From Toxorhynchites rutilus septentrionalis (lineage: Eukaryota; Arthropoda; Insecta; Diptera; Culicidae), in contig NC_073744.1 in assembly GCF_029784135.1 (NCBI RefSeq), positions 103,643,266 to 103,707,265 of the forward strand: a stretch of DNA of 64,000 bases. Reading direction: 5' to 3'. The notes beneath the pieces are model-generated. The model saw nothing but the letters and a program-made list of their open reading frames with translations. It was not told the origin of the DNA and did no database searches. The translations under genes and the position numbers were made by a program. Below are positions 4,910 through 46,593 of this stretch, in pieces (positions within the stretch are counted from its first letter, which is position 1; each line of letters starts with the position of its first letter).

Positions 4910-5869
4910 GACGTAGAACTACGTCTTTCATTAAGGGTGCCAAATTAGAAAACAGGTCACGTTTTTATGAAATAAAGTTAACGTTAATAACTATTTTTGC
5001 CGCGAACGGATTTTGGCGATTCACATACTAAACGAATCGGAAATTCCGTAAGATTGCTGGGGTGTCCGGACATATGCTATACATTAGAATCCCCTGGTTT
5101 GTAAATGGTTAAAATTCATGAAAACTTGAGGCGTTTCCATTTTTCCATACATTTGTTCTGTCCATTTGTGTGCTTTCCCGAACAGACCTGTCAATAACGA
5201 GCAACTTATCAACGACCAACAGAGGGGAAATCGTAGGATTCAAAGTCCCCATGAATGAGGATATGGCTAACGCCATATGAGCCTTGATAAAATATATATA
5301 TTTTGGAAAAAAAAGTCCCCATGAACAAAGGAAAAGTAGAAGAATGAAGGGGAATACTTGCCTAGAGTATAAACAGTGGATCTCGCTGAGGCAAACTTTC
5401 ATTCGGCATCGGACTGTTGAGCAATCCAGTTCACTTTGCTTTCGCTGCGCTTCGATCTAAGATTGGACCCCACCAGTGGTAATCCAACTTGGATATCGTC
5501 GTTTGGTAATATTAACCAGTAATATTAACAGAAGCGTTTCTTTTGAGAATAGCGCAAAATGATTAGAAGTATTTATATTCCTAGTAGATTCAAGCCACCA
5601 ATGTATGGCTCTGTATGCATGCTATGGCGAACGCTTGTTTGGCGCTTGGTTTACGTTGTACGAACGATGCCTAGAGGTGCGATTCCTTTAAGGAAATACT
5701 AAACAACATGTAGCATAATATTCGATACTTGCAAGTGTTGTCATTGTTGTTTCCATGCGGTGCCAAAAATATATTGATGTAGTTATGAGATGTGGAATAA
5801 TGGTGCTGGTGCAACATGTATATAATCGACTCTAGCCGAGTCTATGTCAATTGCGAAAAAGGCAAAAAA
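4910..5869 (+). mobile_element. Palindrome-ended element, copy 1 (E1 type)
   Basis: Starts with the palindrome GACGTAGAACTACGTC (4910-4925) preceded by TTTT. It is repeated in inverse orientation at about 44950-46593. The two copies agree from the palindrome through about 5510, then again from about 5530 to the GGCAAAAAAA end near 5869. The second copy has about 780 bp more between these blocks. No intact ORF is present. It belongs with the histone-carrying group by its shared palindromic end. Confidence 0.65.
5256..5311 (+). mobile_element. Short retrotransposed insertion with 14-bp direct repeats
   Basis: A 56-bp sequence ending in TTTTGGAAAA is flanked by direct repeats AAAGTCCCCATGAA at 5242-5255 and 5312-5325. 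The sister copy near 46250-46270 has the empty site. The A-rich tail and long target duplication fit a heavily 5'-truncated LINE- or SINE-type insertion. Confidence 0.65.
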
Positions 5870-6133
5870 ACAGGAAGTGGGTTATATCTATGGTATAACC
5901 GCAAGGGTGACGTAGGACTATCGTTGATTTAGAGATCATTTGTATGAAGTTGAATCTGAATTCATTCTGAATGAATGAATATTTGGAGAACTTCGAAAAC
6001 GAGAGCGTTACGTTGGAGGCACAAGGTTTTATGCATCCAATATTGGATACGGAAATATCCTACTGATGGGGAAGAATAATCTTCAGAAGCTATCCTGTTG
6101 ATTGCGATTGATTGAAAAACCACAAAACCAAAT

Positions 6134-6815
6134 GTATTTGGTCACAGTGTTACATGGATAGAAAACATTCAATTAAACTCTTTCACATGAATATATTTTG
6201 AAAATTCCCAAAGGAACTGGCAGATTATTTTCAGTAACGATTAGATATTTCCACATTTTCCTCGATACTTGGAATGCCAACTCGATAACCACCTGTTAAT
6301 AGCACTTGATTGAAACATATTTGGTCACAGTGTTACATGGATAGAAAACATTCAATTAAATTCTTTCACATGAATATATTTTGAAAATTCCCAAAGGAAC
6401 TGGCAGATTATTTTCAGTAACGATTAGATATTTCCACATTTTCCTCGATACTGGAAGCCCACCAGTGGTTAATGCCAACTCGATAACCACCTGTTAATAG
6501 CACTTGATTGAAACATATTTGGTCACAGTGTTACATGGATAGAAAACATTCAATTAAACTCTTTCACATGAATATATTTTGAAAATTCCCAGAGGAACTG
6601 GCAGATTATTTTCAGTAACGATTAGATATTTCCACATTTTCCTCGATACTGGAAGCCCACCAGTGGTTAATACCAACTCGATAACCACCTGTTAATAGCA
6701 CTTGATTGAAACATATTTGGTCACAGTATTACATGGATAGAAAACATTCAATTAAACTCTTTCACATGAATATATTTTGAAAATTCCCAAAGGAACTGGC
6801 AGATTATTTTCCAGC
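6134..6815. repeat. 198-bp tandem repeat, block 1
   Basis: Units starting at ATTTGGTCACAG recur at about 6134, 6319, 6517 and 6715 (spacings 185, 198, 198). Each contains the TGGATAGAAAACATT and AACTGGCAGATTATTTT segments. Neighbouring units are almost identical, suggesting recent local amplification inside the element. Confidence 0.85.
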
Positions 6816-7194
6816 AATGATTAGATCTTTCCGGAACTTTCTCGTTGCTGAATGGCATCCTAACGGAAAGAGTTCTGCGCGTGTATGTGTCGATCCTTCG
6901 CCAGCACGTTAGGCAACGATATTGTCTTGTCGATGTCCTCACGAAAAATGAATGTGTCTCACCACCAGAATATCGCTTAAGTATGCTTTTTGTGTGTGAT
7001 TGAATCGAGAGAAGGTGTGGTTTACGATGGCAATTTGGAAGGCAAACTAGAGGGGAATGAACTCTCTGAGCTCGGATCTTTCGGCGACTGAGCAATAATC
7101 GATTGCGGGCGCATACAATATTGGATACGGAAATATCCTACTGATGGGGAAGAATAATCTTCTGAAGCTATCCTGTTAATTGCGATTGATTGAA

Positions 7195-7530
7195 AAACCA
7201 CAAAACCAAATGTATTTGGTCACAGTGTTACATGGATAGAAAACATTCAATTAAACTCTTTCACATGAATATATTTTGAAAATTCCCAAAGGAACTGGCA
7301 GATTATTTTCAGTAACGATTAGATATTTCCACATTTTCCTCGATACTGGAAGCCCACCAGTGGTTAATGCCAACTCGATAACCACCTGTTAATAGCACTT
7401 GATTGAAACATATTTGGTCACAGTGTTACATGGATAGAAAACATTCAATTAAACTCTTTCACATGAATATATTTTGAAAATTCCCAAAGGAACTGGCAGA
7501 TTATTTTCCAGCAATGATTAGATCTTTCCG
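7195..7530. repeat. 198-bp tandem repeat, block 2
   Basis: Two more units of the same repeat (starts near 7212 and 7412), separated from block 1 by about 380 bp derived from the H3-5' type segment. Confidence 0.8.
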
Positions 7531-7639
7531 AAACTTTCTCGATGCTGAATGGCATCCTAACGGAAAGAGTTCTGCGCGTGTATGTGTCGATCCCTCGCCG
7601 TCCAGCTCGTCCAGCAACGATGTTGTCCAGTCGGTGTCC

Positions 7640-8000
7640 ACACAAAGAATGATCGTTACTGCAGCGGAGCGGGGATTTTTAAGCTGACTGGCTGGCTCGA
7701 GAATTACGCATGTGTGATACTGCGACTAATGTTTCGTTCATTTTTTTTCTTTTTCCTTTCTAATCGTGCTTCATTCTATTTCGCTGCTGCTCTGGTTGCC
7801 CGTTTTGGTCGGTACGATTTGAGGAGCACAAAATGGACCAATCAAAAATGGGCACATAGGGCATTTGGACAATGCTTGATATTTAACAATTATTCAATTA
7901 TTTATCTCAAGAAAAATGAAATGTTATTCGTTATGATAGATGCGTAGATATATTTCCTATCAATTGATGCAAAAACCTTCGCGATCTATTGAGAAATGCT
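7640..8000 (-). pseudogene. H2A promoter/5' region fragment
   Basis: This matches the upstream part of the H2A cassettes (compare 22320-22650): a CCAAT motif in the TTTTTGATTGGTCC segment, the TTAAAAATCCCCGCTCCGC segment, and the shared AT-rich far-upstream block. The H2A coding body is absent. The right side runs to the element end at 8101. Confidence 0.65.
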
Positions 8001-8101
8001 CGAGTTCTAAGCGTTCCAAATCTTGCATTTTTTCCTACTTGTTCAGTGCCTAGATTTCCATTTCACCCCCTATATCTTCCGGTTAGACGTAGTCCTACGT
8101 C

Positions 8102-8925
8102 AAAAAGCGTTCGAGGTAAATGTTCATTGCATTGACATGAAATAAATTGCGACTTACGATCAGCTAGTGTATTGTTTTGCGAGGGCAAGAATGAATCATC
8201 AATCAATTATCGTCAACGAATTCTACAATGAAAAAGCCATTTCAGAGATTATTCTACTAAGCAGTTGTTTCTAAAATTTCACAGCATTATAGAATAATAT
8301 CCGAAGGTATAAATAAGCGACTTATATAGAATAACAGCGTAGTTCTACGTCAACAATGCGGTCGTATCTTACACACAACCTCCTATAATTTTTTGCCGTT
8401 ATAACGAAACATTTTTGGCCGTAAATCGAAAACGCGTCTGAGGGCCGTTATAGCGAAATGCCGTATAAAGAGCGGCCGTATAGCGAGGTATGGGTGTATT
8501 ATTTTTGTTGTTTCATGGGGCTATCATTTGTTTCCATTCGTTAATTTGAGAACTATTTATCTTGCAGCACCATTCATCTATCACTCGTTCGTTTTCTTTC
8601 CTCTTATGCACCGCCTACCGTACACAGTTCGTTCTGAACCAGGTGTATGACACGATTATAGCTATCTCACTCTACCTACCGTCACCGCCTATCTCACTAT
8701 CCCTCTGCTGCAAAAGTTCATCATCGACATCACGATATGTCAGATGGTGGTAAATTCAGGGGTTAGACATCAATTGAATATAGGCTACCCAAAATCAAAA
8801 TCAATATGGCGTCATTTGTTTACTAACATATCATTTACGAGGATTGAAATCATTGAAATCACGGAGATAGTATGCTTTATTTTTAACTGCATGAGCGATT
8901 TTCATATTTCGGTTTCACATGGAGG
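8102..8925. other. Non-coding stretch, partly repetitive
   Basis: 8102-8230 matches 39665-39797 in reverse. A palindrome-like TAGTTCTACGTCAA occurs near 8341-8354. 8400-8500 has repeated GCCGTATA/GTTATA(A/G)CGAAA short motifs. 8620-8640 shares ACACAGTTCGTTCTGAAC with 13730-13795. No gene is supported. Confidence 0.5.
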
Positions 8926-9192: not shown

Positions 9193-9723
9193 TATTGGAA
9201 GAAGTCATTGATTTCGACAAGTTCGCCTCGCTCGCTCTCGGAGGATAGAGAAAATAAGTTTATCTAAGTCTTCAACACCACTATTCGACTATATAACCGG
9301 ACCGAGTTGTAAACAATAGTAATTGATAGAACCAAAATGTCAGTAAACCGCAGCAATATTGGGTACACTGGCAATACAAGGGATTTGACGTTTTAGTCAT
9401 ACCCCTGGGTAAATTGGTAATTCGCGATGACGTCGACGTCTAGTGGCGACCAAGACGGGTCTATGGTACTAGGTGAGGCCGTTTCGTCACTAAGTTGGTT
9501 AGGGGAGCGGTATATGAAAACAGTACGGAAGAAAGCAGAAGGGGAATTATTTGCTTGTAGCGTGAAAGAGACAGACTGATCACGAGCGAGCTTCGGCACT
9601 AGCGTATTGTGTTTTGTTTACAAACAAAACACAGTAGACTTCCAAGATGGCTGAAGAGTGGTTTTAGCAAGTTGGCCCACCAACTTGCAAAACAAAACAA
9701 AATCAATATAAGATATACTTCTA
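9193..9723. other. Non-coding stretch
   Basis: No supported gene. It contains an AACACAAAACAA-rich short inverted motif near 9610-9632 (GTTTTGTTTACAAACAAAAC). Confidence 0.4.
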
Positions 9724-10921
9724 CACTGTGAGGAAAATTTAGTAAATATGACGAATTTTTTGGTACATGTTACCAATTCTCTAGTCATTTTCTACCCTAC
9801 TAATCATTGGTACATGTTACAAAAAAAGAATGGTAGGCACATATGTCAAACAAACTACAAATTGTTGGTCCAACATTGGTGCAATAACAGTGAAAATTTT
9901 GCTTCATATTTGTTAGAAGTAATCATCAGGGATAATGACATTATTTTTTAATAATTATTTTTAATTTAAAAATGTAAATTCGATTGCGTTTAATTCTACA
10001 TACTTAGAATACATTATACTAATAACTTATTCTATAAACAACATCAATAATTCTCGTTGGAATCATTCTATAAACTGCGTACAAGAGGCAAATTTTAATC
10101 GCAGCCTCAACCACCTCAATTTGATGAGCATTTCCAAAACAAGTTCCCGTTCCTCTTCCTGCTGCATTGCTCTGATTTGCATTAGCTGATTAGCAGCTGA
10201 TTAGCAGAGTGACGGTAGAATTAGCACGTTTCATCCGTATTTTGTTCTCTCGTGTCCCTATGAAGAAAAGAAATACATATGTTGATGATATTAAATATGC
10301 AATAAATTATGTATGTTCACCTTAAGTTTTTTACGGTCGATGATGTGTTGAAGAAAGATTCCAATCTTAGCGACAAACTGGCCGTTACCTTCAATCCCAT
10401 AGCTTGGATGGTTTTTGGTAAACAAGTATTACGAGTCTGGGATCATGCCAGCTGTAAAGACAAGGAAAAAGGTCAATAGTGTTGTAATGTATAAAATATA
10501 ACTGATGTTTATCCTTGGCGGGAATATGAAAATAGTTTCCCAACCGAGCTGACTGATGTAATGATGTAAAAAAAAACGAAAAAAAATATGTAATGATGTA
10601 AAAAAAAAAAAGAAAACAAATTCTCGGGGGAGTTGAATGCATAATTGAATTCAATATAAACAAAGTGCTTACCTCCAAATCGCTTCGTCTCCTAAAGACA
10701 AAAGACAAAGTGCGCACATCACAGTTGTTAGGTATGACAATAAAAACAAACTTACTAATGGTATGAAGTAAAATATACGAATTCCTGGTAGGAACATTCA
10801 TTGCGTCTGACATATTTTTTACGCAATTTTAGTAATATTTACAAAAAATGTGTATATTTTACCAATGTTTTTGCTACTAAAGATTTGGTAGCTGCTTTTA
10901 CTAAACTATTTCTCCAGTGTA
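9724..10921 (+). mobile_element. TIR element, TA-flanked (long copy)
   Basis: The left end is CACTGTGAGGAAAATTTAG after TA. The right end near 10912-10921 reads CTCCAGTGTA. The interior is AT-rich with no transposase ORF. A second, shorter copy lies inverted at 10986-11606, and most of 9724-10150, 10395-10560 and 10860-10920 is repeated there in reverse. TA flanks and CACTG ends suggest a Tc1/mariner-type non-autonomous element. Family is uncertain. Confidence 0.6.
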
Positions 10922-10985
10922 GGCGCCTTGGTGGCGACTTCAAGTTAGAGCCATAATTTGGGTCCCAAAATCGTTAGTGTAATCT

Positions 10986-11606
10986 CTACACTGGAGAAAT
11001 AGTTTAGTAAAAGCAGCTACCAAATCTTTAGTAGCAAAAATCTTACATCATTTTCACCTCGGTCGGGAAACTATTTTCATATTCCCGCCAAGGATAAACA
11101 TCAGTTATATTCTATACATTACAACATTATTGACCTTTTTCCTTGTCTTTACAGCTGGCATGATCCCAGACTCGTAATAGAGAGAACTTGCTTTGGAAAT
11201 GCTCATCAAATTGAGGTGGTTGAAGCTGCGATTAAAATTTGCCTCTTGTACGCAGTTTATAGAATGATTCCAACGAGAATTATTGATGTTGTTTATAGAA
11301 TAAGTTATTAGTATAATGTATTCTAAGTATGTAGAATTAAACGCAATCGAATTTACATTTTTAAATTAAAAATAATTATTAAAAAATATTGTCATTATCC
11401 CTGATGATTACTTCTAACAAATATGAAGCAAAATTTTCACTGTTATTGCACCAATGTTGGACCAACAATTTGTAGTTTGTTTGACATATGTGCCTACCAT
11501 TCTTTTTTTGTAACATGTACCAATGATAAGTAGGGTAGAAAATTACTAGAGAATTGGTAACATGTACCAAAAAATTCGTCATATTTACTAAATTTTCCTC
11601 TCAGTG
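10986..11606 (-). mobile_element. TIR element, TA-flanked (short inverted copy)
   Basis: Begins TACACTGGAGAAATAG and ends CTCTCAGTG followed by TA. It is the inverse of the 9724-10921 copy but lacks the parts corresponding to about 10150-10395 and 10565-10860. The two copies are separated by a 64-bp spacer and form a large imperfect foldback. Confidence 0.6.
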
Positions 11607-11831
11607 TACCAGATTAGAAGACACGGAGCCGGTTTTCAAATTTTAAAATTTGAATGAAAATTTTCACATTATGTTATTTAATTATTAGAATCACGTATTT
11701 CTGACTTTCATTCAACCATATGATCATACAATTCCAACATTGTTGCTGATTTTTTTCTTTATAATATAAAATTGTCTTCATAAAAAATTTTCGTATGAGA
11801 CTTTTCCCCCACCTGCAAACAAAAATGTTTT
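11607..11831. other. AT-rich spacer
   Basis: No gene seen between the TIR element and the palindromic end at 11832. Confidence 0.5.
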
Positions 11832-12059
11832 GACGTAGGACTACGTCTTTCATTTCTATACCGGGGTGTAAAATCAAAGTTTCGAAAACGAAAGCGTTAC
11901 GCCGGAGACCGAGATTTTGAGTGTTAATAGCTCCTAAACAACTGAACAAAATGGTATGATAAACACTTCATTCGAAAGGTAAAATGTCTACGCGTTCTAT
12001 ACTTGTTACTTTCGGATCCAAAAACTTGTTTCAATAGTCTTAAATTTGCTTTCACAACA

Positions 12060-12290
12060 GGCTATTGAAATCACCAATAGGTATATAAGCGAGCGCCGCT
12101 CGGAAATCCACTCAGTTCTAATTGAACAGCGATTGGAGCATGTTGTCGCTGTTGTGGTGAAGCTCTTAATTTATCATGAAAGCGCGGATGAACGGTGTCA
12201 CCAAGAGCCTGTTTGTGCACCTTAGGCCAGAAGGGAATCCATCAGGAGGAGAGTGATGCCACAAACGGTTCCCCGGGAAGATCTCGAAGC
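12060..12290 (+). pseudogene. Decayed histone H3 promoter and N-terminal half
   Basis: A TATATAAG box (about 12080) and the inverted CCAAT box GCGATTGGAG (about 12128) precede an ATG at 12176. From about 12180 the bases align imperfectly with the start of H3. The best segment, near 12226-12278 (GCCAGAAGGGAATCCATCAG and following), matches the codons for the ARKSAP-GGVKKPH-R-RPG part of H3, with indels. It has no H3 C-terminal half or stem-loop. The same piece recurs at 19480-19690 (reverse) and about 41950-42170. The H3 identity is by-eye alignment. Confidence 0.5.
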
Positions 12291-12944
12291 AGCCGCTACA
12301 CACACACACACACATACACGCGCGGAATTCTTTCCGTTTGGATGCCATTCAGCATCGAGAAAGATCCGGAAAATAATCTGCCAGTTCCTCTGGGAATTTA
12401 AAAATACATTCATGTGAAAGAGTTTATTTGAATGTTTTTTATCCATGTAACACTGTGACCAAATATGTTTCAATCAAGTGCTATTAACAGATGGTTATCG
12501 AGTTAGCATAAACCACTGGTGGGCTTCCAGTATCAAGGAAAATGTGGAAATATCCAATCGTTACTGAAAATAATCTGCCAGTTTCTCTGGGAATTTAAAA
12601 TTACATTCATGTGAAAGATTTTATTTTAATGTTTTCTATTCATGTAACACTGTGACCAAATACATTTGGTTTTGTGATTTTTCAATCAATCGCAATTAAC
12701 AGGATAGCTTCTGAAGATTATTCTTCCCCATCAGTAGGATATTTCCGTATCCAATATTGTATGCGCCCGCAATCGATTATTGCTCAGTCGCCGAAAGTTC
12801 CGAACTCAGAGAGTTCATTCCCCTCTAGTTTGCCTTCCAAATTGCCATCGTAAACCACGCCTTCTCTCGATTCAATCACACACAAAAAGCATACTTAAGC
12901 GATATTCAGGTGGTGAGATGCATTCATTTTTCGTGAGGACATCG

Positions 12945-13085
12945 ACAAGACAACATCGTTGCTGAGGGTGCTGGACGGCGAAGGATCGAGATCTGCCCTG
13001 AAACGCAAGCAGTTTGTTTGAAACTGTGAGGAGCACAGAGAAGCCGATCCTTCAGGAGAAGAGAAGGTGACCATCGAAGCAGCCG
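12945..13085 (+). pseudogene. Possible second H3 N-terminal fragment
   Basis: Contains AAACGCAAGCAGTTTG, like the codons for RKQL, and a GGAGAAGAGAAGGTGACCATCG segment like GGVKKPHR codons. It is highly decayed, and shorter related pieces occur near 6880, 7590, 15770, 21160 and 24310. The assignment is tentative. Confidence 0.3.
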
Positions 13086-13473
13086 CTACACATACACATA
13101 CACGCACGGAATTCTTTCCGTTTGGATGCCGTTCAGCATCGAGAAAAATCCTGAAAATAATCTGCCAGTTCCTCTAGGAATTTAAAAATACATTCCAAAT
13201 ACATTTGGTTTTGCGATTTTTCAATCAATCGCAATTAACAGGATAGCTTCGGAGGATTATTCTCCCCCATCAGTAGGATATTTCCGCATCCAATATTGGA
13301 TGCATAAAACCTTGTGCCTCTAACGTAACGCTCTCGTTATCGAAGTTCTCCAAATATTCATTCATTCAGAATGAATTCAGGTTCAACTTAAAACAAATGA
13401 TCTCTAAATCAACGATAGTCCTACGTCACCCTTGCGGTTATACCATAGATATAACCCACTTCCTGTTTTTTAT

Positions 13474-14269: not shown

Positions 14270-14400
14270 TGAAAAAAAAAGACGGGTGGGTAATGTCGGG
14301 GACATAACCGGAGTGACGTAGGACTATACAAAGGGGACAGCTTTTGTTAAATATATATTTTAAATATATTGTTTTATTTTCTTCTCCTACACATTACCAG
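14270..14400 (+). repeat. Hairpin-type terminus of the palindrome-ended group (GACGGGTGGG end)
   Basis: A-run, then GACGGGTGGGTAATGTCGGG, then GACATAACCGGAGTGACGTAGGACTATAC. The GTAATGTC..GACATAAC part can pair with itself. The same terminus occurs at 20084, 28645 and 40143, and in reverse at 36487 and 44940. Confidence 0.75.
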
Positions 14401-15157: not shown

Positions 15158-15819
15158 AAAAAACAGGAAGTGGGTTATATCTATGGTATAACCGCAAGGG
15201 TGACGTAGGACTATCGTTGATTTAGAGATCATTTGTTTGAAGTTGAATCTAAATCCATCCTGAATGAATGAATAAATAAATATTTGGGTGACTTCAAAAA
15301 CGAGAGTGTTACGTTGGAGCATCAAGGTTTTATGCATCCAATATTGGATACAAAAAACCTTGTTCTGAAGAATAATCTTCAGAAGCTTTCCTGCTAACTG
15401 CACTTGATTGACAAATCACAAAACCAAATGTATGTGGTCGCAGTATTATATGGATAGAAAACATTAAAATAAACTCGCTTGAATGTAATTTTCAATTCCA
15501 AGGGGAACTGGCAGATTATTTTTCAGCAACGATCATTTCTTTCCAGGTTTTCTCTCGATAACCAGCAAACGAAAAGAGTTGCGCACGTGTATGTGTGTGT
15601 GTGTGTGTGTATGGCGGCTGCTTCTATGTCTTCCCGAGGAACCGTAATTCGATGCTGATACTCTCTTGGTCACGAGAGTATCAGCATCGGCTTTTCTGCG
15701 CTCCCTCACAGTTAAAACAAACTGATTGCATTTCAGGTCAGGTCAGGCCAGGTAATGAATCCCTCGATTCCTCGCCGTTCAGCTCGTTCAGTAACGATGT
15801 TGTCTTGTCGATGTCCTCA

Positions 15820-15977
15820 GGCGTCGTGCACAAATTACGTAACGCTAAAAATCCGAATTCTGAACCACCTCTCCCCCCCCCCTTTCGTAACGCAATTTCC
15901 TATCTCTAATAAACAGAAAGGAACGCAACATCTACCCCCTCCCCCCTTATCGCGTTACGTAATTTGTGCACGACGCC
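15820..15977. mobile_element. 158-bp MITE with TCA target duplication (Harbinger-like)
   Basis: The terminal inverted repeats (GGCGTCGTGCACAAATTACG and complement) are about 26 bp and almost perfect. Flanks are TCA at 15817-15819 and 15978-15980. The uninterrupted host sequence, TGTCCTCACGAAAA, is reconstructed by removing it and is seen near 6940-6950. A 3-bp target duplication suggests PIF/Harbinger. Confidence 0.8.
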
Positions 15978-16467
15978 TCACGAAAAATGAATCGGTTTCA
16001 CCACCACAATATCAATTCAGTATGCTTTTCGTGCGTGATTGAATCGAGAGAAGGTGTGGTTTACGATGGCAATTTGGAAGGCAAACTAGAGGAGAATGAA
16101 CTCTCTGAGTATGAAAATTTCGGCGACTGAGCAATAATCGATTGAAAATTATATAATTTTCGCGATACGAAACAATTTCCGTTTTTCATGTTATGCATCC
16201 AATATTGGATACGAAAATATCCTACTGATGGGAAAGAATAATAAATCAAATGTATTTGGTCGCTGTGTTCGCCATATAATTAGAAAACATTAAAATAAAC
16301 TCTTTCGCATGAATGTATTCTTCAATTCCCAGGGAACTGACAGATTATTTTTCAGCAACGATTAGATCTTTCCGGAATTTTCTCGATGCTGTATGGCATC
16401 CACACGAAAATTCTCGTTTCAGTTTGGCCTGTAAAAACTTTTCTAAACTCTAATCCATGAAATTTGG

Positions 16468-16868
16468 AGCCCTGAAAAGGGTCGTTGATTATATGCTAAG
16501 CTAATATAGCACCCTCTTCTTGTATTCGATGGGCCAGCTGAATGTCCTTGGGCATGATGTGACGCGTTTTGCGTGGATAGCACACAAATTGGTATCTTCG
16601 AATAAGCCTCCTGCAGCGTCATAACAGCGGAACATTTGAAGCGCAAGTCGGTTTTGAAGTCCTGAGCAATTCCACGATCCGAAAGCTGCAAAGGTAGCTT
16701 GCGGATTAGCAATTCGGTCGACTTCCGATAGCGATGAATTTCACGCAAAGTTCCCGGTCGATAGCGATGTGGCTTCTTCACCTATCCTGCGGCTGATGCG
16801 CTTATCCGAGCTGCTTTCGTGTGCCTTACCACTGATAGACTAACTTGCTATCTGCTTGGTCCCAAACA
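16468..16868 (-). pseudogene. Histone H3 pseudogene 1
   Basis: Read on the minus strand, H3 can be followed nearly end to end. There is a TKQ-like start near 16865, then GGKA-RKQL, then an open run from [10 protein letters not shown] through [10 protein letters not shown] and QDFKTDLRF (16781-16600), then after a frameshift [17 protein letters not shown] (about 16610-16555) and the MPKDIQLA segment. A histone-type stem-loop follows (GACCCTTTTCAGGGCT, 16468-16483). H3 normally packages DNA as part of the nucleosome. This copy has indels and stops and cannot make H3. The stem-loop shows that it came from a replication-dependent, non-polyadenylated gene. Confidence 0.9.
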
Positions 16869-17017
16869 AACGAGTCGTCACGGTGCGAGAGTAGAGTAAG
16901 AAATGAACGAAAGCAAAGAAAGTGTCATTTTATAAACCATAAAAGTATAGAATCTAAACCCCACCCTTATTATATTCGTTGCTTACCCTGAGAGAGAAAC
17001 GAATAACATCGAATGTA

Positions 17018-17223
17018 TTTGAATCCGGACACTTTGCGTTACATTTAATACCATACCGCAGCCACAACATTTTCTGCATGTTGAATTAATGCGATTGAAT
17101 AGTAACTATCAAGAAACTATCAGTAACTATATTAGCAACTATTAATCGCATAAATTCAACATGAAAAAAATGTTATGGCTGTGGTATGATATTGAATGTA
17201 ATGCAAAGTGTCCGGATTCAAAA
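17018..17223. mobile_element. Palindromic MITE
   Basis: Inverted arms of about 75-80 bp, outermost TTTGAATCCGGACACTTTGC and its complement, with a short AT-rich centre of repeated GTAACTAT/ACTATC motifs. Non-coding. The target duplication was not resolved. Confidence 0.75.
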
Positions 17224-17239
17224 GCATTACTGTAAAAAA

Positions 17240-17890
17240 GAGTTAACTCGACTGAAATTTTTTCTGTTCGGCCTGCAAAAACGAAATTAAGAGCCCCCGC
17301 CGACTGCAGACTGACTTGACGACCGATAGTTCGGTCGGCTTCTTAATCAGTACGGAGAAAAAAAGTCTGTAGTGTACAGCATAATGCATAGACGTAAGTA
17401 TGAGCTTCCCCATCTCGCATTCCAATAAGATTAATGGGTTTCCAAGTGGACGCGCTACATACGGATACGAATGATTTCAATAACCTGTTTTCGAAGCTAT
17501 CATTAAGCTATTGAAACAATTTTTCGACTCAATAAATATCAATCATATAACTCTTGGACATTTTATCTTTTGTATGAAATGATTATCATACTGTTCCGTT
17601 GATCCGAGGCAGAATGAATCACGCTTAAAGAAGGAATGGATTTTTTCTTGGAATTTAGTCAGCAGAAATAATGCCCTTTCCCAACAATTAAAAACGACAA
17701 ACGGTAAACAGTTTCATCAAAGTGATTTCTTCGATATGGGGATATATTCACTACAACATGTCATATATTTCATATTCTTCATTATCAAATCCATATCCAT
17801 GGCACCTACCGGTAACGAATTATTATCGAAACCACGATTTTCGCTAAATGCTCCTTTCAGTTCGGCCTGTAAAAAACTTTTCTGTACTCT
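17240..17890. other. H3-flanking and promoter-like debris
   Basis: Contains pieces similar to the H3 3' flank (CTGTAAAAAC) and to the upstream region seen at 11980-12080 and 19680-19800 (for example GACATTTTATCTTT near 17560). No gene is present. Confidence 0.4.
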
Positions 17891-17899
17891 AATCCATCA

Positions 17900-18552
<653 letters not shown>

Positions 18553-19400: not shown

Positions 19401-19479
19401 GAACTGGCAGATTATTTTTCAGCAACGATGATAGCAACGAGAATTCCGCGCGTGTATGTGTGTGTGTGTGGTGGCTGCT

Positions 19480-19690: not shown

Positions 19691-19932
19691 TGATTTCAAT
19701 AGCCTGTTTTGAAAGCAATTTTAAGACTATTGAAACAAGTTTTTGGATGAAAAAGTAACAAGTATATGACGCGTAGACATTTTATCTTTCAAATGAAGTG
19801 TTTATCATACCATTTCGTTCAGTTGTTTAAGAGCTATTAACGCTCAAAATCTCGGTCTCCGGCGTAACGCTTTCGTTCTCGAAAGTTTGGTTTTACACCC
19901 CGGTATAGAAATGAAAGACGTAGTCCTACGTC

Positions 19933-20997: not shown

Positions 20998-21019
20998 ACA
21001 AAATTATCTTCAAGGGAAG

Positions 21020-33122: not shown

Positions 33123-33599
33123 TGTGTGACCAGCGTTCCCAATGTTCCAGTTTAAACTGGATTCTTCCAGTTTTTTTTCCTCGGTCCAGTCAAACAGTAA
33201 TCCTAAAATCTTCCAGTTTTTTCAAATATTGTCCAGTTTTACCCAGTTTTTTTATGGTTGCTTCATTTTACCAAGTTTTTGTGAAATAAATTCACGATAC
33301 ATAAAAATTATCCCTCCCTCACCCTTCCTATTTCTCAACCGATTCTGTTTTGACGTAGGACTACGTCTAACCGGAAGATATAGGGGGTGAAATGGAAATC
33401 TAGGCACTGAACAAGTAGGAAAAAATGCAAGATTTGGAACGCTTATAACTCGAGCATTTCTCAATAGATCGCAAAGGTTTTTGCATCAATTGATAGGAAA
33501 TATATCTACGCATCTATCATAACGAATAACATTTCATTTTTCTTGAGATAAATAATTGAATAATTGTGAAATATCAAGCATTGTACAAATACACTATGT

Positions 33600-34330
33600 G
33601 CCCATTTTTGATTGGTCCATTTTGTGCTCCTCAAATCGTACCGACCAAAACGGGCAACCAGAGCAGCAGCGAAATAGAATGAAGCACGATTGGAAAGGAA
33701 AAAGAAAAAAAAGAGGGAAACATTGGTCGCAGTCTCACACATGCGTAATTCTCGAGCCAGCCAGTCAGCTTAAAAATCCCCTCTCCGCTGCCGTAACGAT
33801 CATTCTCATCCGAACCGTACACCACATCGTTTCGCATCACCTCACATCAACAAACCAACACAAGCAGCCATGGTTGGATATGGCAACGGAGGAAAAGTGA
33901 AGGGAAAGGCAAAATCCCGCTCGAACCTTGATCTGGAGTTCCCGCTCGTGTTGATCTGGAGTTCCCCGCAAGGGTAGCTAGGTAGCTAGGTGCACCAGTC
34001 CACCTAGCCGGCGTTATATAGCTTCGGCCGCCGAAGTGATCGAGTTAGCTGGCAAAGCTGCTCGCGACGATAAGAAAACCTGCATTCGGAACAGAACACA
34101 TTCGGTTCGGTGGACATCAAGACAACAGGCAGTTGCAGCGAGTGGCAAACGCAATCGCAAAACGGCATCAGGCAGCAGAAGAAAAAAGTTTGTTCTTTAT
34201 ACAAACTGCTTTGGTGGCAAATCCAGAACAAGGCGGCTTCGAGGGCGTTCGAAATGTTTTTTTTCAAAACCACGAGTACTAAGTTTTCTAAATTGGAACC
34301 ATTCCATAAAACAAGGCGCTTTTCAGGGCC
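33600..34330 (+). pseudogene. Histone H2A pseudogene, cassette type 2 (copy E)
   Basis: The CCAAT-containing promoter block (33600-33830) leads to an ATG at 33870 starting MVGYGNGGKVKGKAKSRSN. The body has a duplicated GTTGATCTGGAGTTCCC piece and frameshifts. An ELAGKAARDDKKTCI-like segment lies in a plus frame from 34036, and the stem-loop GGCGCTTTTCAGGGCC is at 34315-34330. Broken. Confidence 0.9.
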
Positions 34331-34914
34331 ATTAAACCTTCCAAAAAAGAGTTTAGGAAATAAAATTCAATGCTTTCTAAAACATTATCCAAAATAATAA
34401 TAAAACACAAATTGATGTTTTCATAATTTGTTTGCCAGGATCTGATGAGTATGTGAATTTGGCAGTTGTTCTGAGCTTATTGATAGTTGCGGACTTTCCT
34501 GATTATTCAATTTTCACCAATTCTTATATTGTTTCCAGATTTAAAGTACAGTAATCTACAATTAGTTCGACATTCAGCTAATTGGACGGACATGTAATGC
34601 GACTTATTTAGTTGGACATTTTTGTAAACATAGAGATCCAAATTATGACCCCACATTGAAAGTCGACACTGTACCACTGTCATCGCAAATGTTCAATTAC
34701 AGGTTAAAATTACCTCCAATCCGGCACTAAGTGGTGGTAATGCGACGTGCCATTGAATGTAATTTACTGTAAAATATGTCACAAGCTGGATGGGAAGAAA
34801 TTTTCCAACTGTGAAAGCTGTGGCGAGTGACAACAAATCGCTAAACAGGAAGGTTTAGCCGAACAAGATGGGGATATCGAGTGATAACAAAACAATAAAC
34901 TCTTTAGACTTTTT

Positions 34915-35652
34915 GTGATCCTGAAAAGGACCCTTTTTAGTCTGTATGTGAATCCAACGAGCGAACAAATCGTAATGAATGTATTTTTTTGCCATCACTC
35001 CCTTTTAACGCTCATTCGTTCGTCTCGTTGGACCCGCCCCTTTGGCTGAGTCTGCCGATTTGTCTCTATCCTGTGAGTGTGTACCGCTAGAGTATAAAAC
35101 ACGCGGACCCCAAAAAAATATCTTATTTTCTTTCAAACCGTAAACCCGTGTGGTTGTACGGCATCGGCATCGTGTACTCAACAAAGGAGGAAAAGAGAAG
35201 GGAAAGGCAAAATCCCGCTCGAACCGTGGTGGTCTGCAATTTCCCGTAGGTGTATCCGCCAATTGCACCGGAAAAGGTTGCTAGGTCGAGCGCGTTAGTA
35301 CCTGTGTACCAGTCCACCTAGCCGGCGTTATATAGTTTCGGCCGCCGGAGTGATCGAGTTAGCTGGCTTAGGTGCTCGCGACGATAAGAAAACCTGCATT
35401 CGGAACAGAACACATTCGGTTCGGCGGACATCAAGACAACAGGCAGTTGCAGCGAATGGCGAGTGGCAAACGCAATCGCAAAACGGCATCAGGTAGCAGA
35501 AGAAAAAAGTTTGTTCTTTATACAAACTGCTTTGGCGGCAAATCCAGAACAAGGCGGCATCGAGGGCGTTCGAAATGGTTTTTTTTCAAAACCACGAGTA
35601 CTAAGTTTTCTAAATTGGAACCATTCCATAAAACAAGGCGCTTTTCAGGGCC
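34915..35652 (+). pseudogene. Histone H2A pseudogene with TATA promoter (copy F)
   Basis: An opposite-strand stem-loop (34917-34932) is followed by a TATAAAA box (about 35094) and an H2A body starting near 35183 (KGGKEKGKAKSRSNR-type codons, start codon lost, then LQFPVG). The body continues in decayed form to about 35470. The stem-loop GGCGCTTTTCAGGGCC is at 35637-35652. This copy joins a type 1 promoter to a type 2 3' end, so the two cassette types recombine. Confidence 0.85.
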
Positions 35653-36059
35653 ATTAAACCTTCCAAAAAAGAGTTTAGGAAATAAAGTTCAATGCTTTCT
35701 AAAACATTATCCAAAATAATAATAAAACACAAATTGATGTTTTCATAATTTGTTTGCCAGGATTTGATGAGTATGTGAATTTGGCAGTTGTTCTGAGCTT
35801 ATTGATAGTTAGGGACTTTCCTGATTATTCAATTTTCACCAATTCTTAAATTGTTTCCAGATTTAAAGTACAGTAATCTATAATTAGTTCGACATTTAGC
35901 TAATTGGACGGACATGTAATGCGACTTATTTAGTTGGACATTTTTGTAAACATAGAGATCCAAATTATGACCCCACATTGAAAGTCGACACTGTACCACT
36001 GTCATCGCAAATGTTCAATTACAGGTTAAAATTACCTCCAATCCGGCACTGAGTGGTGG

Positions 36060-36487
36060 TAATGCGACGTGCCATTGAATGTAATTTACTGTAAAATATG
36101 TCACAAGCTGGATGGGAAGAAATTTTCCAACTGTGAAAGCTGTGGCGAGTGACAACAAATCGCTAAACAGGAAGGTTTAGCCGAACAAGATGGGGATATC
36201 GAGTGATAACAAAACAATAAACTCTTTAGACTTTTTGTGATCCTGAAAAGGACCCTTTTTAGTCTGTATGTGAATCCAACGAGCGAACAAATCGTAATGA
36301 ATGTATTTTTTTTGCCATCGCTCCCTTTTAACGCTCATTCGTTCGTCTCGTTGGACCCGCCCCTTTGGCTGAGTCTGCCGATTTGTCTCTATCCTGTGAG
36401 TGTGTACTGCTAGAGTATAAAAGCTGTCCCCTTTGTATAGTCCTACGTCACTCCGGTTATGTCCCCGACATTACCCACCCGTCTTTT
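36060..36487 (+). pseudogene. H2A promoter region fragment at element end
   Basis: Repeats 34740-35100 (opposite-strand stem-loop at 36239-36254, TATAAA near 36416), then changes directly into the GACGGGTGGG terminus in reverse. No H2A body. Confidence 0.75.
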
Positions 36488-37753: not shown

Positions 37754-37761
37754 TGTGTGAC

Positions 37762-39797: not shown

Positions 39798-40142
39798 GAC
39801 GTAGGACTACGTCTAAGCGGAAGATATGAAAATCTAGGCACTGAACAAGTAGGAAAAAATGCAAGATTTGGAACGCTTATAACTCGAGCATTTCTCAATA
39901 GATCGCAAAGGTTTTTGCATCAATTGATAGGAAATATATCTACGCATCTATCATAACGAATAACATTTCATTTTTCTTGAGATAAATAATTAAATAATTG
40001 TGAAATATCAAGCATTGTCCAAATGCACTATGTGCCCATTTTTGATTGGTCCATTTTGTGCTCCTCAAATCGTACCGTCCAAAACGGGCAACCAGAGCAG
40101 CAGCAAAATACAATGAAGGACGATTGGAAAGGAAAAAGAAAA
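39798..40142 (+). mobile_element. Truncated H2A-carrying element end
   Basis: Starts with GACGTAGGACTACGTC (39798-39813) and follows the far-upstream and promoter block of H2A cassette type 2 to AAAGGAAAAAGAAAAA. There it is cut by the GACGGGTGGG end of the next element. No H2A body. Confidence 0.75.
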
Positions 40143-40399
40143 AGACGGGTGGGTAATGTTGGGGACATAACCGGAGTGACGTAGGACTATACAAAGGAAC
40201 AGCTTTTGTTAAATATATATTTTAAATAAATTATTTTATTTTCTTCTACTTGAATACCTACCTATCTACCTGAAAAATTGATTAGTTTACTGTTTACTCT
40301 TTATGAATATGTTGATGGTTCTGAAAAGAACCTTTGGTGTTGTGTTTTTGTTATCACTCGATATTCCCATCTTGTTAGGTTAAACCTTAAGATATTTTT

Positions 40400-41415
40400 T
40401 TGGGGTCCGCGTGTTTTATACTCTAGCGGTACACACTCACCGGATAGAGACAAATCGGCAGACTCAGCCAGAGGGGCGAGTCCAACGAAACGAACGAATG
40501 AGCGTTAAAGGGAGCGATGGCAAAAAAATACATTCATTACGATTTGTTCGCTCGTTGGATTCACATGCAGGCTAAAAAGTGTCCTTTTCAGGATCACAAA
40601 ATTATCTTCAATCTAAAGAGTTTATTGCTTAGTTATCACTCGATATCCCCATCTTGTTCGGCTAAACCTTTCTGTTTATAGATTGCATTTGCCACTCGCC
40701 ACAGCTTTCACAGTTGGAAAATTTCTTCCCATCCAGCTTGTGACATATTTTACAGTAAATTACATTCAATGGCACGTCGCATTACCACCACTCAGTATCG
40801 GATTGGAGGTAATTTTAACCTGTAATTGAACATTTGCGATGACAGTGGTACAGTGTCGACTTTCAATGTGGGGTCATAATTTGGACCCCGAACCCTATGT
40901 TTACAAAAATGTCCAACTAAATATGTCGCATTACAGGTCCGTCCAATTAGCTAAATGTCGAGATAAGTGTAAATTACTGTACTTTCAATCTAGAAGCTAT
41001 TTAAGAATTGGTGAAAATCAATAAGCTCAGAACAACTGCCAAATTCACATACTCATCATATCCTGGCAAACAAATTATGAAAAAATTAATTTGTGTTTTA
41101 TTATTATTTTGGATATTGTTTTAGAAAGCATTGAACTGTATTTCCTAAACTCTTTTTTGGAAGGTTTAATGGCCCTGAAAAGCGCCTTGTTTTATGGAAT
41201 GGTTCCAATTTAGAAAACTTTGTACTCGTGGTTTTGAAAAAAACCATTTCGAACGCCCTCGATGCCGCCTTGTTCTGGATTTGCCACCAAAGCAGTTTGT
41301 GTGAAGAACAAACTTTTTTCTTCTGCTACCTGATGCCGTTTTGCGATTGCGTTTGCCACTCGCCACTCGCTGCAACTGCCTGTTGTTGTCTTGATGTCGA
41401 GCCGAGCGCGTTAGT
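40400..41415 (-). pseudogene. Histone H2A-derived segment, left arm
   Basis: Promoter region with TATA box (about 40417, reverse), degenerate opposite-strand stem-loop (about 40580-40595) and the cassette 1-2 linker. The H2A 3' part has stem-loop GGCGCTTTTCAGGGCC at 41171-41186 (minus sense). The N-terminal half is absent, replaced by the junction to the right arm. Confidence 0.75.
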
Positions 41416-41703
41416 ACCAGTGCACCAGTCCACCTAGCCGGCGTTATATAGTTTCGGCCGCCGAAGTGATCGAGTTGGCTGATGAAGCTGCTCGCGACGA
41501 TAAGAAAAACCGCATTCAGAACAGAACACATTCGGTTCGGTGGACATCAAGACAACAACAGGCAGTTGCAGCGAGTGGCGAGTGGCAAACGCAATCGCAA
41601 AACGGCAGCAGGTAGCAGAAGAAAAAAGTTTGTTCTTTATACAAACTGCTTTGGTGGCAAATCCAGAACAAGGCGGCATCGAGGGCGTTCGAAATGGTTT
41701 TTT
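41401..41703 (+). pseudogene. Histone H2A C-terminal fragment, right arm
   Basis: From an ACCAGTGCACCAGTCCACC segment through the decayed EL...DDKK-like region to GTTCGAAATGGTTTTTT, where the H3-5' type element has inserted. The remainder resumes at 42777 with TCAAAACCACGAGTAC and the stem-loop at 42838-42853. Confidence 0.75.
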
Positions 41704-42776
41704 TGACGTAGGACTACGTCTTTCATTTCTATACCGGGGTGTAAAATCAAAGTTTCGAAAACGAAAGCGTTACGCCGGAGACCGAGATTTTGAGTGTTAA
41801 TAGCTCCTAAACAACTGAACGAAATGGTATGATAAACACTTCATTCGAAAGATAAAATGTCTACGAGTTCTATACTTGTTACTTTCTGATCCAAAAACTT
41901 GTTTCAATAGTCTTAAATTTGCTTTCAAAATAGGCTATTGGAATCACCAATCGGTATATAAGCGAGCGCCGCTCGGAAATCCACTCAGTTCTAATTGAAC
42001 AGCGATTGGAGCATGTTGTCGCTGTTGTGGTGAAGCTCTTTATCATGAAAGCGCGGATGAACGGTGTCACCAAGAGCCTGTTTGTGCACCTTAGGCCAGA
42101 AGGGAATCCATCAGGAGGAAAGTGATGCTACAAACGGTTCCCCGGGAAGATCTCGAAGCAGCCGCTACACACACACACATACACGCACGGAATTCTTTCC
42201 GTTTGGATCGAGAAAGATCCGGAAAATAATCTGCCAGTTCCTCTAGGAATTTAAAAATACATTCATGTGAAAGAGTTTATTTGAATGTTTTCTATCCATG
42301 TGACACTGTGACCAAATATGTTTCAATCAAGTGCTATTAACAGATGGTTATCGAGTTAGCATTAACCACTCGTGGGCTTCCAGTATCGAGGAAAATATGG
42401 AAATATCTAATCGTTACTGAAAATAATCTGCCAGTTCCTCTGGGAATTTAAAATTACATTCATATGAAAGAGTTTATTTTAATGTTTTCTATCCATGTGA
42501 CCAAATACATTAGGTTTTGTGATTTTTCAATCAATCGCAATCAACAGGATAGCTTCTGAAGATTATTCTTCCCCATCAGTAGGATATTTCCGTATCCAAT
42601 ATTGGATGCATAAAACCTTGTGCCTCCAACGTAACGCTCTCGTTTTCGAAGTTCTCTAAATATTCATTCATTCAGAATGAATTCAGATTCAACTTCATAC
42701 AAATGATCTCTAAATCAACGATAGTCCTACGTCACCCTTGCGGTTATACCATAGATATAACCCACTTCCTGTTTTT
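41703..42776. mobile_element. Histone-carrying palindrome-ended element (H3-5' type), copy 2
   Basis: A clean insertion. The left end is GACGTAGGACTACGTC (41705-41720) and the right end the GGTTATACC-hairpin block and CTTCCTG. It interrupts the T-run of an H2A cassette; the empty site is at 35575-35600. It contains the H3-like TATA/5' half (about 41950-42170) and 198-bp-type units. At 1.07 kb it is the best-defined member of the group. Confidence 0.8.
41950..42170 (+). pseudogene. Decayed histone H3 promoter and N-terminal half, copy 3
   Basis: TATATAAG at about 41955, ATTGGAGC at about 42005 and ATG at about 42045, followed by the AGAAGGGAATCCATCAGG segment aligned with ARKSAP-GG codons of H3. 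Same breaks as the other copies. Confidence 0.5.
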
Positions 42777-44060
42777 TCAAAACCACGAGTACTAAGTTTT
42801 CTAAATTGGAACTATTCCATAAAACATGGCGCTTTTCAGGGCCATTAAACCTTCCAAAAAAGAGTTTACGAAATACAGTTCAATGCTTTCTAAAACAATA
42901 TCCCAAATAATAATAAAACACAAATTTATTTTTTCATAATTTGTTTGCCAGGAGATAATTTGTTTGAGTATGAGAATTTGGCAGTTGTTCTGAGCTTATT
43001 GATGGTTGGGGACTTTCCCGATTATTCAATTTTCACCAATTCTTAAATTGATTTTAGATTGAAAGTACAGTCATTTACATTTAGCTCGACATTTAGCTAA
43101 TTGGACGGACCTGTAATGCGACATATTTATTTGGACATTTTTGTAAATATAGAGTTCGGGGTCCAAATTTTGACCCCACATTAAAAGTGGACACTGTACC
43201 ACTGTCATCGCAAATGTTCAATTACAGGTTAAAATGGCCTCCAATGCGACACTGAGTGGTGTTTCGGCACGTCGCATTAAATATAATTTATGTTGTACAG
43301 TAACTCACAGTCACAGTCACAAGCTGGATGGGAAGAAATTTTCTAACTGTGAAAGCTGTGGCGAGTGGCAAACGCAATCGCTAAACAGGAAGGTTTAGCC
43401 GAACAAGATGGGGATATCGAGTGATAACAAAACAATAAACTCTTTAGATTAAAGATAATTTTGTGATCCTGAAAAGGACCTTTTTTAGCCTGCATCTGAA
43501 TCCAACGAGCGAATAAATCGTAATGAATGTATTTTCTTCTTCTTCTTCTTTTTGGCTTTAAGAGGGTTTAAACTTTTCAGTTCATTCGCCTCTATGAATG
43601 TATTTTTTTTTGCCATCGCTGCCTTTTAACGCTCATTCGTTCGTCTCGTTGGACTCGCCCCTTTGGCTGAGTCTGCCGATTTGTCTCTATCCTGTGAGCG
43701 TGTACCGCTAAAGTACAAAACGCGCGGATCCGCTGAAAAATATATCATTCTCTTTCAAACCGTAAATCAGTGTGGTTGTATGGCATCATTTCACATCTCA
43801 CCGCATCAACGGATTGGTGCCGTAGCACCAGTATACCTAATAGCGGTTATAGAATTTCTGCCGCCGGAGTGCTCGAGTTGAGCACATTCGGTTCGGTGGC
43901 AACAACTAGTTTCAGCGAGTGGCAAACGCAATCGCAAAACGGCAGCAGGTAGAAGAAGGAAAAAGTTTGTTTATACAACCTGCTTTGGTGGCAAAACCAG
44001 CCTCCGTAAAACACGGCGCTTTTCAGGGCCATTAAACCATTCAAAGAAGAGTTATTAAAA
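42777..44060 (+). pseudogene. Histone H2A-derived segments after the insertion
   Basis: 42777-42900 is the 3' end of one H2A cassette with its stem-loop (42838-42853). 43200-43480 is the linker with the opposite-strand stem-loop (43465-43480), and a CTT-rich SINE-like piece interrupts at about 43535-43600. 43700-43720 is a decayed TATA region. 43800-44030 is an H2A body lacking the N-terminus, with GA.APVYLIAVIEF-type codons (43818-43860) and stem-loop GGCGCTTTTCAGGGCC (44015-44030). Confidence 0.8.
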
Positions 44061-44640
44061 GTTATTTACAATACCAATGCATTCTAAAGTGACATAATAT
44101 GACATATAATATGAACTGAATTATTTTGTTTATGCGTGTTTTTGAACTTATTGATGGTTGGGGTCTTTTAAATTGATCATTCAGTTTTCTCAAACTCATA
44201 CATGGTTTCCGAATTAAAAGTGGCTTCAAATTACAACACATTGTATGCAGGTTGGCATTAACGAATTTTCTCGGTAGCATGAACTGCTTTCTTTGGTTGA
44301 TAACTGATGTTGAAAATTGACTGACGTTACATCTGCATTGTATAGAAAAATAACTAAGGAGCAACATGATGAGCTATGTAGTTCCTGCTGCTCTGTTCTT
44401 ATTTTAAAGGACTTTAATCCGAAGGTCATCCGTCCCTGTATTTACTGTTGGTTTTTCAGAACGTTTATAGCTCGTTTATTTCTCGACAGATCGTAGAGTT
44501 CGTCTCCAAAACCTCAGTTCTTTTTCATTTTTATTTACTTTGTTTGCGGAGACTACAAATCTTACAATTCATTCGTCTCCGAAACCACAGTTTAAGGTAC
44601 GGTAATGTGCTCAATAGTGAAATATATGATAGTGAATGAG
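44060..44640 (-). repeat. Dispersed repeat, inverse copy of 14395-14785
   Basis: Matches 14395-14785 in reverse over about 390 bp, within the right arm of the inverted double element. Confidence 0.7.
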
Positions 44641-44945
44641 CTGATGACCACCTATGCATTCCCTATCACAGCCATCATTTTGATTGTACGATATGTGCAT
44701 ACGCCAAAAGAAGTTTGTAAAAAAAACGCAAAAACACAACACCAAAGGTTCTTTTATGAACCCCCAACATGTTCATAAAGAGTAAACAGTAAACTAATCC
44801 ATTTTTCAGGTAGATAAGTAGGTATTCACGTAGGAGAAGAAAATAAAACAATATATTTAAAATATATATTTAGCAAAAGCTGTCCCCTTTGTATGGTCCT
44901 ACGTCACTCCGGTTATGTCCCCGACATTACCCACCCGTCTTTTTT

Positions 44946-46593
44946 TTTTGCCTTTTTCGCAATTGACATAGACTCGGCTAGACTCGATTATATACATGTT
45001 GCACCAGCACCATTATTCCACATCTCATAACTACATCAATATATCTTTGACACCGCATGGAAACAACAACAATGACAACACTTGCAAGTATCAAATATCA
45101 TGCTACATGTTATTTAGTATTGCCTTAAAGGAATCGTACCTCTAGGCATCGTTCGTACAACGTAAACCAAGCGCCAAACAAGCGTTCGCCATAGCATACA
45201 TACAGAGCCATACATTGGTGGCTTGAAACTACTAGGAATATAAAACACTTCTCATCATTTTGCGCTATTCTCTAAAGAAACGCTTCTGTTAATATTACTG
45301 GCCTCGAAAAAAGTTGTATTTCTTTCTCATGATCGAGAGAAGCGCAGCTATCACCTTTAGTGGAGGAAGTTTTGCTACTGGCAAGCGAAACCACATACAA
45401 AATTCCAGAACGACATTTACTTTCTCGGCGACTAAACAAGCGAAATAAACTCTTTTTGTTAATAACAACCTCGAAAACAGTAGCAATGCTTCATAGCGCT
45501 AATGCAATCCTAGCTGTAGGCAGTTTTGAAACTGGCACGCGAACCCGAATAACTTATAACATTCCAGTAAGACATTCAAGATGCTTGGTATTCCCCAAAT
45601 ATTTTTTTGACGCACAACCTTATGATGACGGAAAACAAACAATGTTAACTGCTTGGAAAAAGACTGAATTATGCCACACAGCTTGTACTCTGCTGTAACA
45701 CCCATCGATGCGAATTCGCTGATGAGTTTGTCCTTCTTCACCACCAGCGGGGGAAGCTTGATTTTGGTTGCTGGGTAACGGCGTTTACATTTTCGACCGA
45801 CGCGCCGAAATCGCCTACTTCGCTGTTGTGCGATGCGGTGTCACACTCGCGAAGGCTCGGTTCAGTGCGAGCGCTTTTCACTACACCAACATCGCGTGCA
45901 TCATTGGATGACGCTTGCCTCGAAATATTATTGCCCCTGGCAATGCGTTCGTTTTTTGCAAGGCTCGAGCCTGCCTTCCTCTTCTTCTTGCTCATCATAC
46001 ACTACGTGAAGCGTCCAATTTATGACGCGGAAAGAAAAACACACGATACGAATAACGCGAAAAACCAACAGAAAAACCAAACGACGATATCCAAGTTGGA
46101 TTACCACTGGTGGGGTCCAATCTTAGATCGAAGCGCAGCGAAAGCAAAGTGAACTGGATTGCTCAACAGTCCGATGCCGAATGAAAGTTTGCCTCAGCGA
46201 GATCCACTGTTTATACTCAAGGCAAGTATTCACCTTCATTCTTCTACTTTTCCTTTGTTCATGGGGACTTTGAATCCTACGATTTCCCCTTCGTTGGTCG
46301 TCGATAAGTTGCTCGTTCTTGACAGGTCTGTTCGGGAAAGCACACAAATGGACAGAACAAATGAATGGGAAAATGGAAACGCCTCAAGTTTTCATGAATT
46401 TTAACCATTTACAAACCAGGGGATTCTAATGTATAGCATATTAAACAAATCTTACGGAATTTCCGATTCGTTTAGCGTGTGCATCACCAAAATCAGTTCG
46501 CGGCAAAAATAGTTATTAACGTTAACTTTATTTCATAAAAACGTGACCTGTTTTCTGATTTGACACCCTTAATGAAAGACGTAGTTCTACGTC
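44946..46593 (-). mobile_element. Palindrome-ended element, copy 2 (E1 type)
   Basis: Reverse copy of 4910-5869 with about 780 bp extra in the middle. Its end is GACGTAGTTCTACGTC (46578-46593) followed by AAAA. The extra part contains an ORF fragment (45738-46000). The left end is TTTTTTGCC abutting the GACGGGTGGG terminus. Confidence 0.65.
45660..46000 (-). pseudogene. Fragment resembling a Jockey/Juan-type ORF1 start
   Basis: On the minus strand a Lys/Arg/Ser-rich N-terminus beginning MMSKKKRKAGSS (from 45998) is followed, after a one-base shift near 45745, by PPLVVKKDKLISEF and AEYKLCGI. The latter looks like the segment before the zinc knuckles (pre-C2HC region) of jockey-clade ORF1 proteins. 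No zinc knuckle follows before stops. The upstream 46130-46400 could be its 5' UTR. The assignment rests on a short motif. Confidence 0.4.

Follow-up and report, generated by a model that had tools for sequence, protein, structure and literature searches.

The window analysed here, 64,000 nt of Toxorhynchites rutilus septentrionalis DNA (contig NC_073744.1, positions 103,643,266 to 103,707,265, forward strand), contains between positions 4910 and 46593 a group of elements with shared ends, some of which enclose broken pieces of the core histone genes H2A and H3. In seven elements, 1.07 to 4.77 kb long, a 5' end is correctly paired with a 3' end (bounds are given throughout without the T-run). 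Three lie on the plus strand (11832-13465, 33352-36483 and 41705-42771) and four on the minus strand (5871-8101, 15164-19932, 20082-24824 and 28648-31106). Histone pieces were found in four of the seven (three with H2A, one with H3); the original prediction, that the interiors carry H2A or H3, holds for these but not for the other three, in which none was found.

Structure of the element ends

The 5' ends are marked by a 16-nt palindrome, GACGTAG(G/A)ACTACGTC or its complement, which had been predicted at twelve positions next to TTTT or AAAA. All 12 coordinates proved exact. A search allowing up to two mismatches returned 25 rows, namely the 12 exact copies on both strands and one imperfect copy at 8336-8351 (minus strand), against a mean of 0.04 and a largest value of 2 in 100 shuffles searched with the same tolerance. 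In element orientation, at least four T residues precede every exact copy, that is, 12 of the 13 five-prime ends, with only TT before the imperfect copy; TTTT lies upstream of 1.7% of window positions. The elements begin with TTTTGACG..., the GACGTAGGACTACGTC palindrome, as the 5' subterminal repeat, following immediately after the terminal T residues.

The opposite ends, predicted to be hairpin blocks, were recovered as well. The 15-nt motif GTGACGTAGGACTAT with its hairpin occurs ten times (eight exact, two with one mismatch); of the 20 rows that the search gave at up to two mismatches, 10 fell on the 5' palindromes and were not counted. At the 3' ends, the motif ATAGTCCTACGTCAC is followed by a short hairpin and then by a T-run of at least 5 nt. 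In type A (n = 4) the hairpin is GGTTATA...TATAACC and the T-run lies exactly 36 nt after the motif; in type B (n = 6) the hairpin is GGTTATGTC...GACATTACC and the distance is exactly 32 nt. The hairpin into which the 3' strand can fold stops short of the T-run by 9 nt in type A and by 8 nt in type B, the elements ending in ...CTTCCTG or ...CCCGTC and then T residues, and DNA folding of the hairpins gave -3.2 and -4.0 kcal/mol. Over the last 60 nt, type A copies are 100% identical and type B copies 88-100% identical; A and B share 58-64%. A 13-nt inverted repeat, TGACGTAGGACTA, is common to the 5' and 3' ends in types a and b (lower-case letters refer to 5' ends, capitals to 3' ends). Two further 3' ends lie on H2A-bearing fragments, and one type B 3' end (14281-14327, minus strand) has no paired 5' end.

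The original prediction had called for the flanks to be examined for target duplications. The short complete a/A element at 41705-42771 is nested within an element that bears H2A, where it occupies a T-run, and five paralogous empty copies of this site are present in the window. The empty sites read GG-T(7 to 10)-CAAAACC (with a single G in one) and the filled site reads GG-T7-element-T6-CAAAACC, so that nothing except T was duplicated at this insertion. The type b 5' ends at 23702 and 22771 adjoin the equivalent T-run place in other H2A copies. No 3' end lies between the units of 20082-24824 that begin there, and these units are therefore a tandem array of 5' parts. Either slippage during rolling-circle copying or a nested insertion with later recombination may have produced it.

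Histone pieces within the elements

Comparison with fly core histones (tblastn) detected H2A and H3 pieces, with H2A at 10 places. At E ≤ 0.05 there are 28 matches, every one of them inside five histone-bearing bodies, which together cover 19.9 kb of the 64-kb window, were chosen after the tblastn result had been seen, and hold matches that are not independent. When all element sequence is taken as the reference (19.9 + 6.9 = 26.8 kb of 64 kb), the 28 matches still fall inside, and shuffled histone queries gave three matches in total over 20 rounds. These data support the proposal of one transposon group with shared ends and histone pieces. No convincing match to H4, H2B or H1 was obtained by tblastn in the window; one H4 match at E 0.03 is explained by the resemblance of the H4 N-terminus to that of H2A.

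The pieces are degenerate, with stops and gaps. H3 copies are confined to the a/A element at 15164-19932 (minus strand), where two lie on one strand (16508-16820 and 17947-18169, minus) and one is inverted (18201-18512, plus), together with H3-type stem-loops and Pfam Histone matches. H2A is carried by three b/B elements: 20082-24824 has three tandem 5' units (ends 24824, 23702 and 22771), a degenerate H2A after each and a single 3' end; 28648-31106 has two degenerate H2A units with stem-loops and, by eye, TATA-like boxes; and 33352-36483 has two degenerate H2A units and a rearranged 3' part. The Tyr codon of the H2A motif RKGNYAER (residue 39 of the query) is TAG in each of the seven copies, out of 10 H2A places, for which a search located it; these copies include both H2A types, and both types depart from the histone reading at a similar place, after residue 78. 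The H2A copies therefore derive most simply from one broken ancestor. As judged from these sequences, H2A would most simply have been captured once and spread later, H3 being a second cargo; the prediction that the group repeatedly carries histone genes is thus right as to the many copies but not, most simply, as to the captures of H2A.

The Rfam Histone3 stem-loop (RF00032) has three matches above the gathering score, at 20235-20279, 28801-28845 and 40293-40337 (all minus strand), which mark histone mRNA 3' stem-loops. With weaker matches included there are 17 in all at E ≤ 0.13 within 4800-46700; a further two have E values of 1.9 and 3. Three weak stem-loops are opposite to the H2A strand (34892-34937, 36214-36259 and 43439-43485); they possibly represent the 3' end of a convergent neighbouring histone gene carried along with H2A.

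Alignment of the best b/B pair (28648-31106 with 20082-22775) gave identities of at least 94% in 23 of 26 segments of at least 30 aligned columns. Selective conservation of the histone regulatory parts was not seen by eye, without a statistic, in three b/B copies. Because visual inspection of the best-aligned pair shows no difference between the histone parts and the rest, we read the histone pieces as most likely passengers rather than working genes.

A palindrome with arms 82% identical was observed at 17012-17228, inside the H3-bearing element. It has sub-cut-off Rfam scores with plant microRNA families, most likely because it is a long hairpin.

Probable assignment to the Helentron group

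According to Thomas et al. 2014 (PMC4067079), Helentrons and HINEs have palindromic subterminal repeats of 12-15 bp, near the 5' end and approximately 38-60 nt from the 3' end. The 5' repeat is described there as lying 2-4 nt from the terminus and the 3' palindrome 8-35 bp from it, with T-rich targets left unmodified and variable numbers of T residues on either border; some copies contain internal tandem repeats (PMC4067079). In the window, the distance of the 3' palindrome is within the published range for both types (A, 9 nt; B, 8 nt), and insertion into a T-rich target without duplication and with a variable T number was seen at one insertion. Counting 2-5 T residues as part of the element, the 3' repeat is 38-41 nt (A) or 34-37 nt (B) from the terminus. 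The published rule defines a family by at least 11 identical subterminal-repeat bases and a subfamily by 80% identity over the last 60 nt (PMC4067079), and a/A and b/B are therefore one family with two subfamilies. Taken together, these data lead us to regard the elements, with a probability of about 0.87, as HINEs, the non-autonomous form of Helentron-type rolling-circle transposons, carrying captured, dead histone pieces.

Several observations weigh against this assignment. The type B 3' repeat, 32 nt plus T residues from the end, lies slightly below the "approximately 38-60" given for mites. No autonomous Helentron or Rep/Helicase was found in the window, in which 17 of 58 stop-free pieces (at least 70 aa) were scanned with Pfam. 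An empty site is demonstrable for one insertion only, and no 3' end was recognised for type c in its two pieces (4910-5870 and 44941-46593). In addition, the 3' half of 33352-36483 fails to align with the other b/B copies, and the remaining three segments of the best b/B pair are 75-89% identical. Of the 17 scanned pieces, two gave histone matches above the curated cut-off and 15 gave nothing above it; part of the scan was run at E ≤ 1 and returned weak sub-cut-off matches to unrelated families, and the set of 58 pieces lay outside the bodies 20082-24824 and 40144-44939. Judged on these translations, Rep/Helicase is likely absent from the window. The 5' end with its T residues had 0 matches in viral and GTDB genome contigs, where the window's own genome was perhaps excluded.

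The original prediction held that no named family has this combination of features. Since the ends match those described for Helentrons and HINEs, that statement is unsupported, and histone capture has already been published in Culex. Helentron-Cq-32A of Culex quinquefasciatus carries broken histone fragments in eight copies, given as "H4 superfamily (smart00428)" and an H15 fragment of 87 bp (PMC4067079). Helentron-Cq-32A and HINE-Cq share with the present elements a mosquito host, palindromic subterminal repeats, a 3' hairpin, T borders and broken histone fragments, and HINE-Cq also has internal tandem repeats (PMC4067079). The cargo differs: the Culex fragments are given as H4 superfamily and H15, those here are H2A and H3, accompanied by promoter-like sequence and 3' stem-loops. 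No transposition gene was found in the elements here, and their likeness to the Culex elements is by published description. DINE-1/INE-1 elements of Drosophila are likewise non-autonomous Helentron relatives with a TT target and a 3' stem-loop, but their subterminal repeats are not palindromic, and histone cargo is unmentioned in the passages of PMC4067079 that describe them.

Our window is thus a second mosquito example of histone capture by Helentrons, adding to the one published case found so far (PMC4067079) another mosquito, another histone (H2A) and the regulatory parts. Among the papers listed, none besides this one describes mosquito Helentrons or Helitrons that captured histone genes, most subscription journals, Repbase and Dfam lying outside the coverage. 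As things stand, the main value of the finding is the correct annotation of mosquito repeats and histone pseudogenes, the histone pieces here looking like dead passengers.

Canonical Helitrons have a 5' TC and a 3' CTRR and insert between A and T. The present elements have in common with them a probable rolling-circle mechanism and gene capture, but begin with TTTTGACG..., end in ...CTTCCTG or ...CCCGTC and then T residues, and insert in T-runs, and so do not fit canonical Helitrons. Pack-MULEs, with long terminal inverted repeats and an 8-11 bp target duplication, do not fit either, as only T residues are duplicated at the one nested insertion and the ends are asymmetric. The predicted analogy to Pack-MULE or Helitron capture was close on the Helitron side, the elements most likely being of the endonuclease-type (Helentron) branch, whose ends differ from the canonical ones.

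Alternative explanations

A special case of the Helentron assignment is that the a/A elements belong to the Helentron-Cq-32A lineage, their cargo predating the split of the two mosquitoes or having passed between them. We take smart00428 to be the histone H3 model; if so, H3 is common to the Culex element and the a/A element here, and the Culex element has an H15 fragment besides. At 19610-19527, within the a/A element 15164-19932, 28 aa align at 43% identity with two Culex H1 proteins in a comparison that took in 13 of 120 listed proteins. However, these matches are not significant (E 0.52 and 0.84), other H1 proteins reaching E 0.02 by chance elsewhere in the window, and no linker histone was found there by Pfam or PDB comparison. 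The H1-like scrap may at most be taken as a hint, and common lineage seems to us possible though on balance improbable. If the Culex cargo is of the same lineage, its age and the possible use of the captured histone promoters become testable. Going further, mosquito Helentrons might have been associated with replication-dependent histone genes over a long time, a lineage with H3 (and perhaps the H1 scrap) predating the Culex-Toxorhynchites split or passing between the two, and a sister subfamily taking H2A with its promoter and 3' stem-loop; the cause would be S-phase transcription from histone promoters or a preference for histone repeats in strand switching. We consider this doubtful.

Insect histone clusters are tandem, and the window could be imagined as a decayed, formerly functional tandem histone cluster, its palindromes and hairpins being no more than spacer sequence and the mobile elements later arrivals. 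The tandem H2A units, which have 3' stem-loops and what look like TATA boxes by eye, would agree with this. However, both ends also bound three elements without a found core-histone piece (11832-13465, 41705-42771 and 5871-8101), the same ends enclose H3 once and H2A elsewhere, and one element is inserted in a T-run that has empty paralogues, which together make such an origin very improbable. Also very improbable is gene capture by a Pack-MULE-like element or a DNA transposon of the cut-and-paste kind, which would account for gene fragments within the elements and for the short inverted repeat common to both ends, but not for the lack of a target duplication of fixed length at the single insertion that has empty sites, nor for a 3' end running 32-36 nt past the repeat, with a hairpin, so that the ends are not symmetric terminal repeats.

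Under the Helentron assignment, the following course of events may be proposed. By analogy with the family, an autonomous Helentron elsewhere would supply the Rep/Helicase/Endonuclease, which would nick an element, copy one strand and insert the copy into a T-run. One element would have acquired a piece of H2A together with its 3' stem-loop and promoter-like sequence, and another an H3 piece. Because the H2A copies have a stop in common, the histone pieces would have been broken before or soon after capture, and could then have been amplified, duplicated within elements, inverted and nested.

Other elements, fragments and neighbouring sequence

Besides the nested element, 11832-13465 (plus strand) is a complete a/A element in which tblastn found no core-histone piece. 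The same applies to 5871-8101 (minus strand), a chimera of a type b 5' part and a type A 3' part with internal tandem repeats of ~198 bp, whose structure suggests strand switching or recombination between the subfamilies. At 40144-44939 two head-to-head b/B fragments (3' ends 40144 and 44939) with H2A remnants are split by the nested 41705-42771, and at 39798-40143 (plus strand) a type b 5' fragment is joined to an inverted 3' end. Type c (GACGTAGAACTACGTC) is represented by 5' parts at 4910-5870 (plus strand), where its own 3' end was not recognised, and at 44941-46593 (minus strand); five type c pieces tested with Pfam gave 0 histone matches. By eye, the second part contains a coding remnant, basic in composition, that may resemble gag or a retrotransposon ORF1 and has no Pfam match.

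The type A end at 5871 and the type B end at 44939 adjoin the identical flank GCCTTTTTCGCAATTGACATAGACTCGG (at 5835-5880 and at 44940-44990), which belongs to a type c piece; this may reflect either double use of one T-run or an exchange of ends. By eye, 28036-28647 and 31107-31437 form another short element with inverted CCCAGCAAACATTAAATCG ends, which encloses 28648-31106. A large inverted repeat at 9722-11608 (arms of 425 nt, 98.6% identity) lies between two elements of the Helentron-type group, and a tandem repeat of ~70/139 bp at 32511-33092 adjoins the element at 33352.

Farther out, pieces of LTR and non-LTR retrotransposons (gag/protease/RT-like, gag with zinc knuckles, and RNase H-like) were recognised by eye at 548-2799 (minus), 57361-59547 (plus) and 61278-62330 (minus). 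A sulfotransferase gene at 53-55 kb places the window in a mosquito, probably Toxorhynchites or a close relative: among the best 120 of 503 matches, its joined exon-like pieces share 79% identity with a protein of Toxorhynchites rutilus and 51-56% with proteins of Wyeomyia, Aedes, Topomyia, Ochlerotatus, Armigeres, Malaya and Culex.

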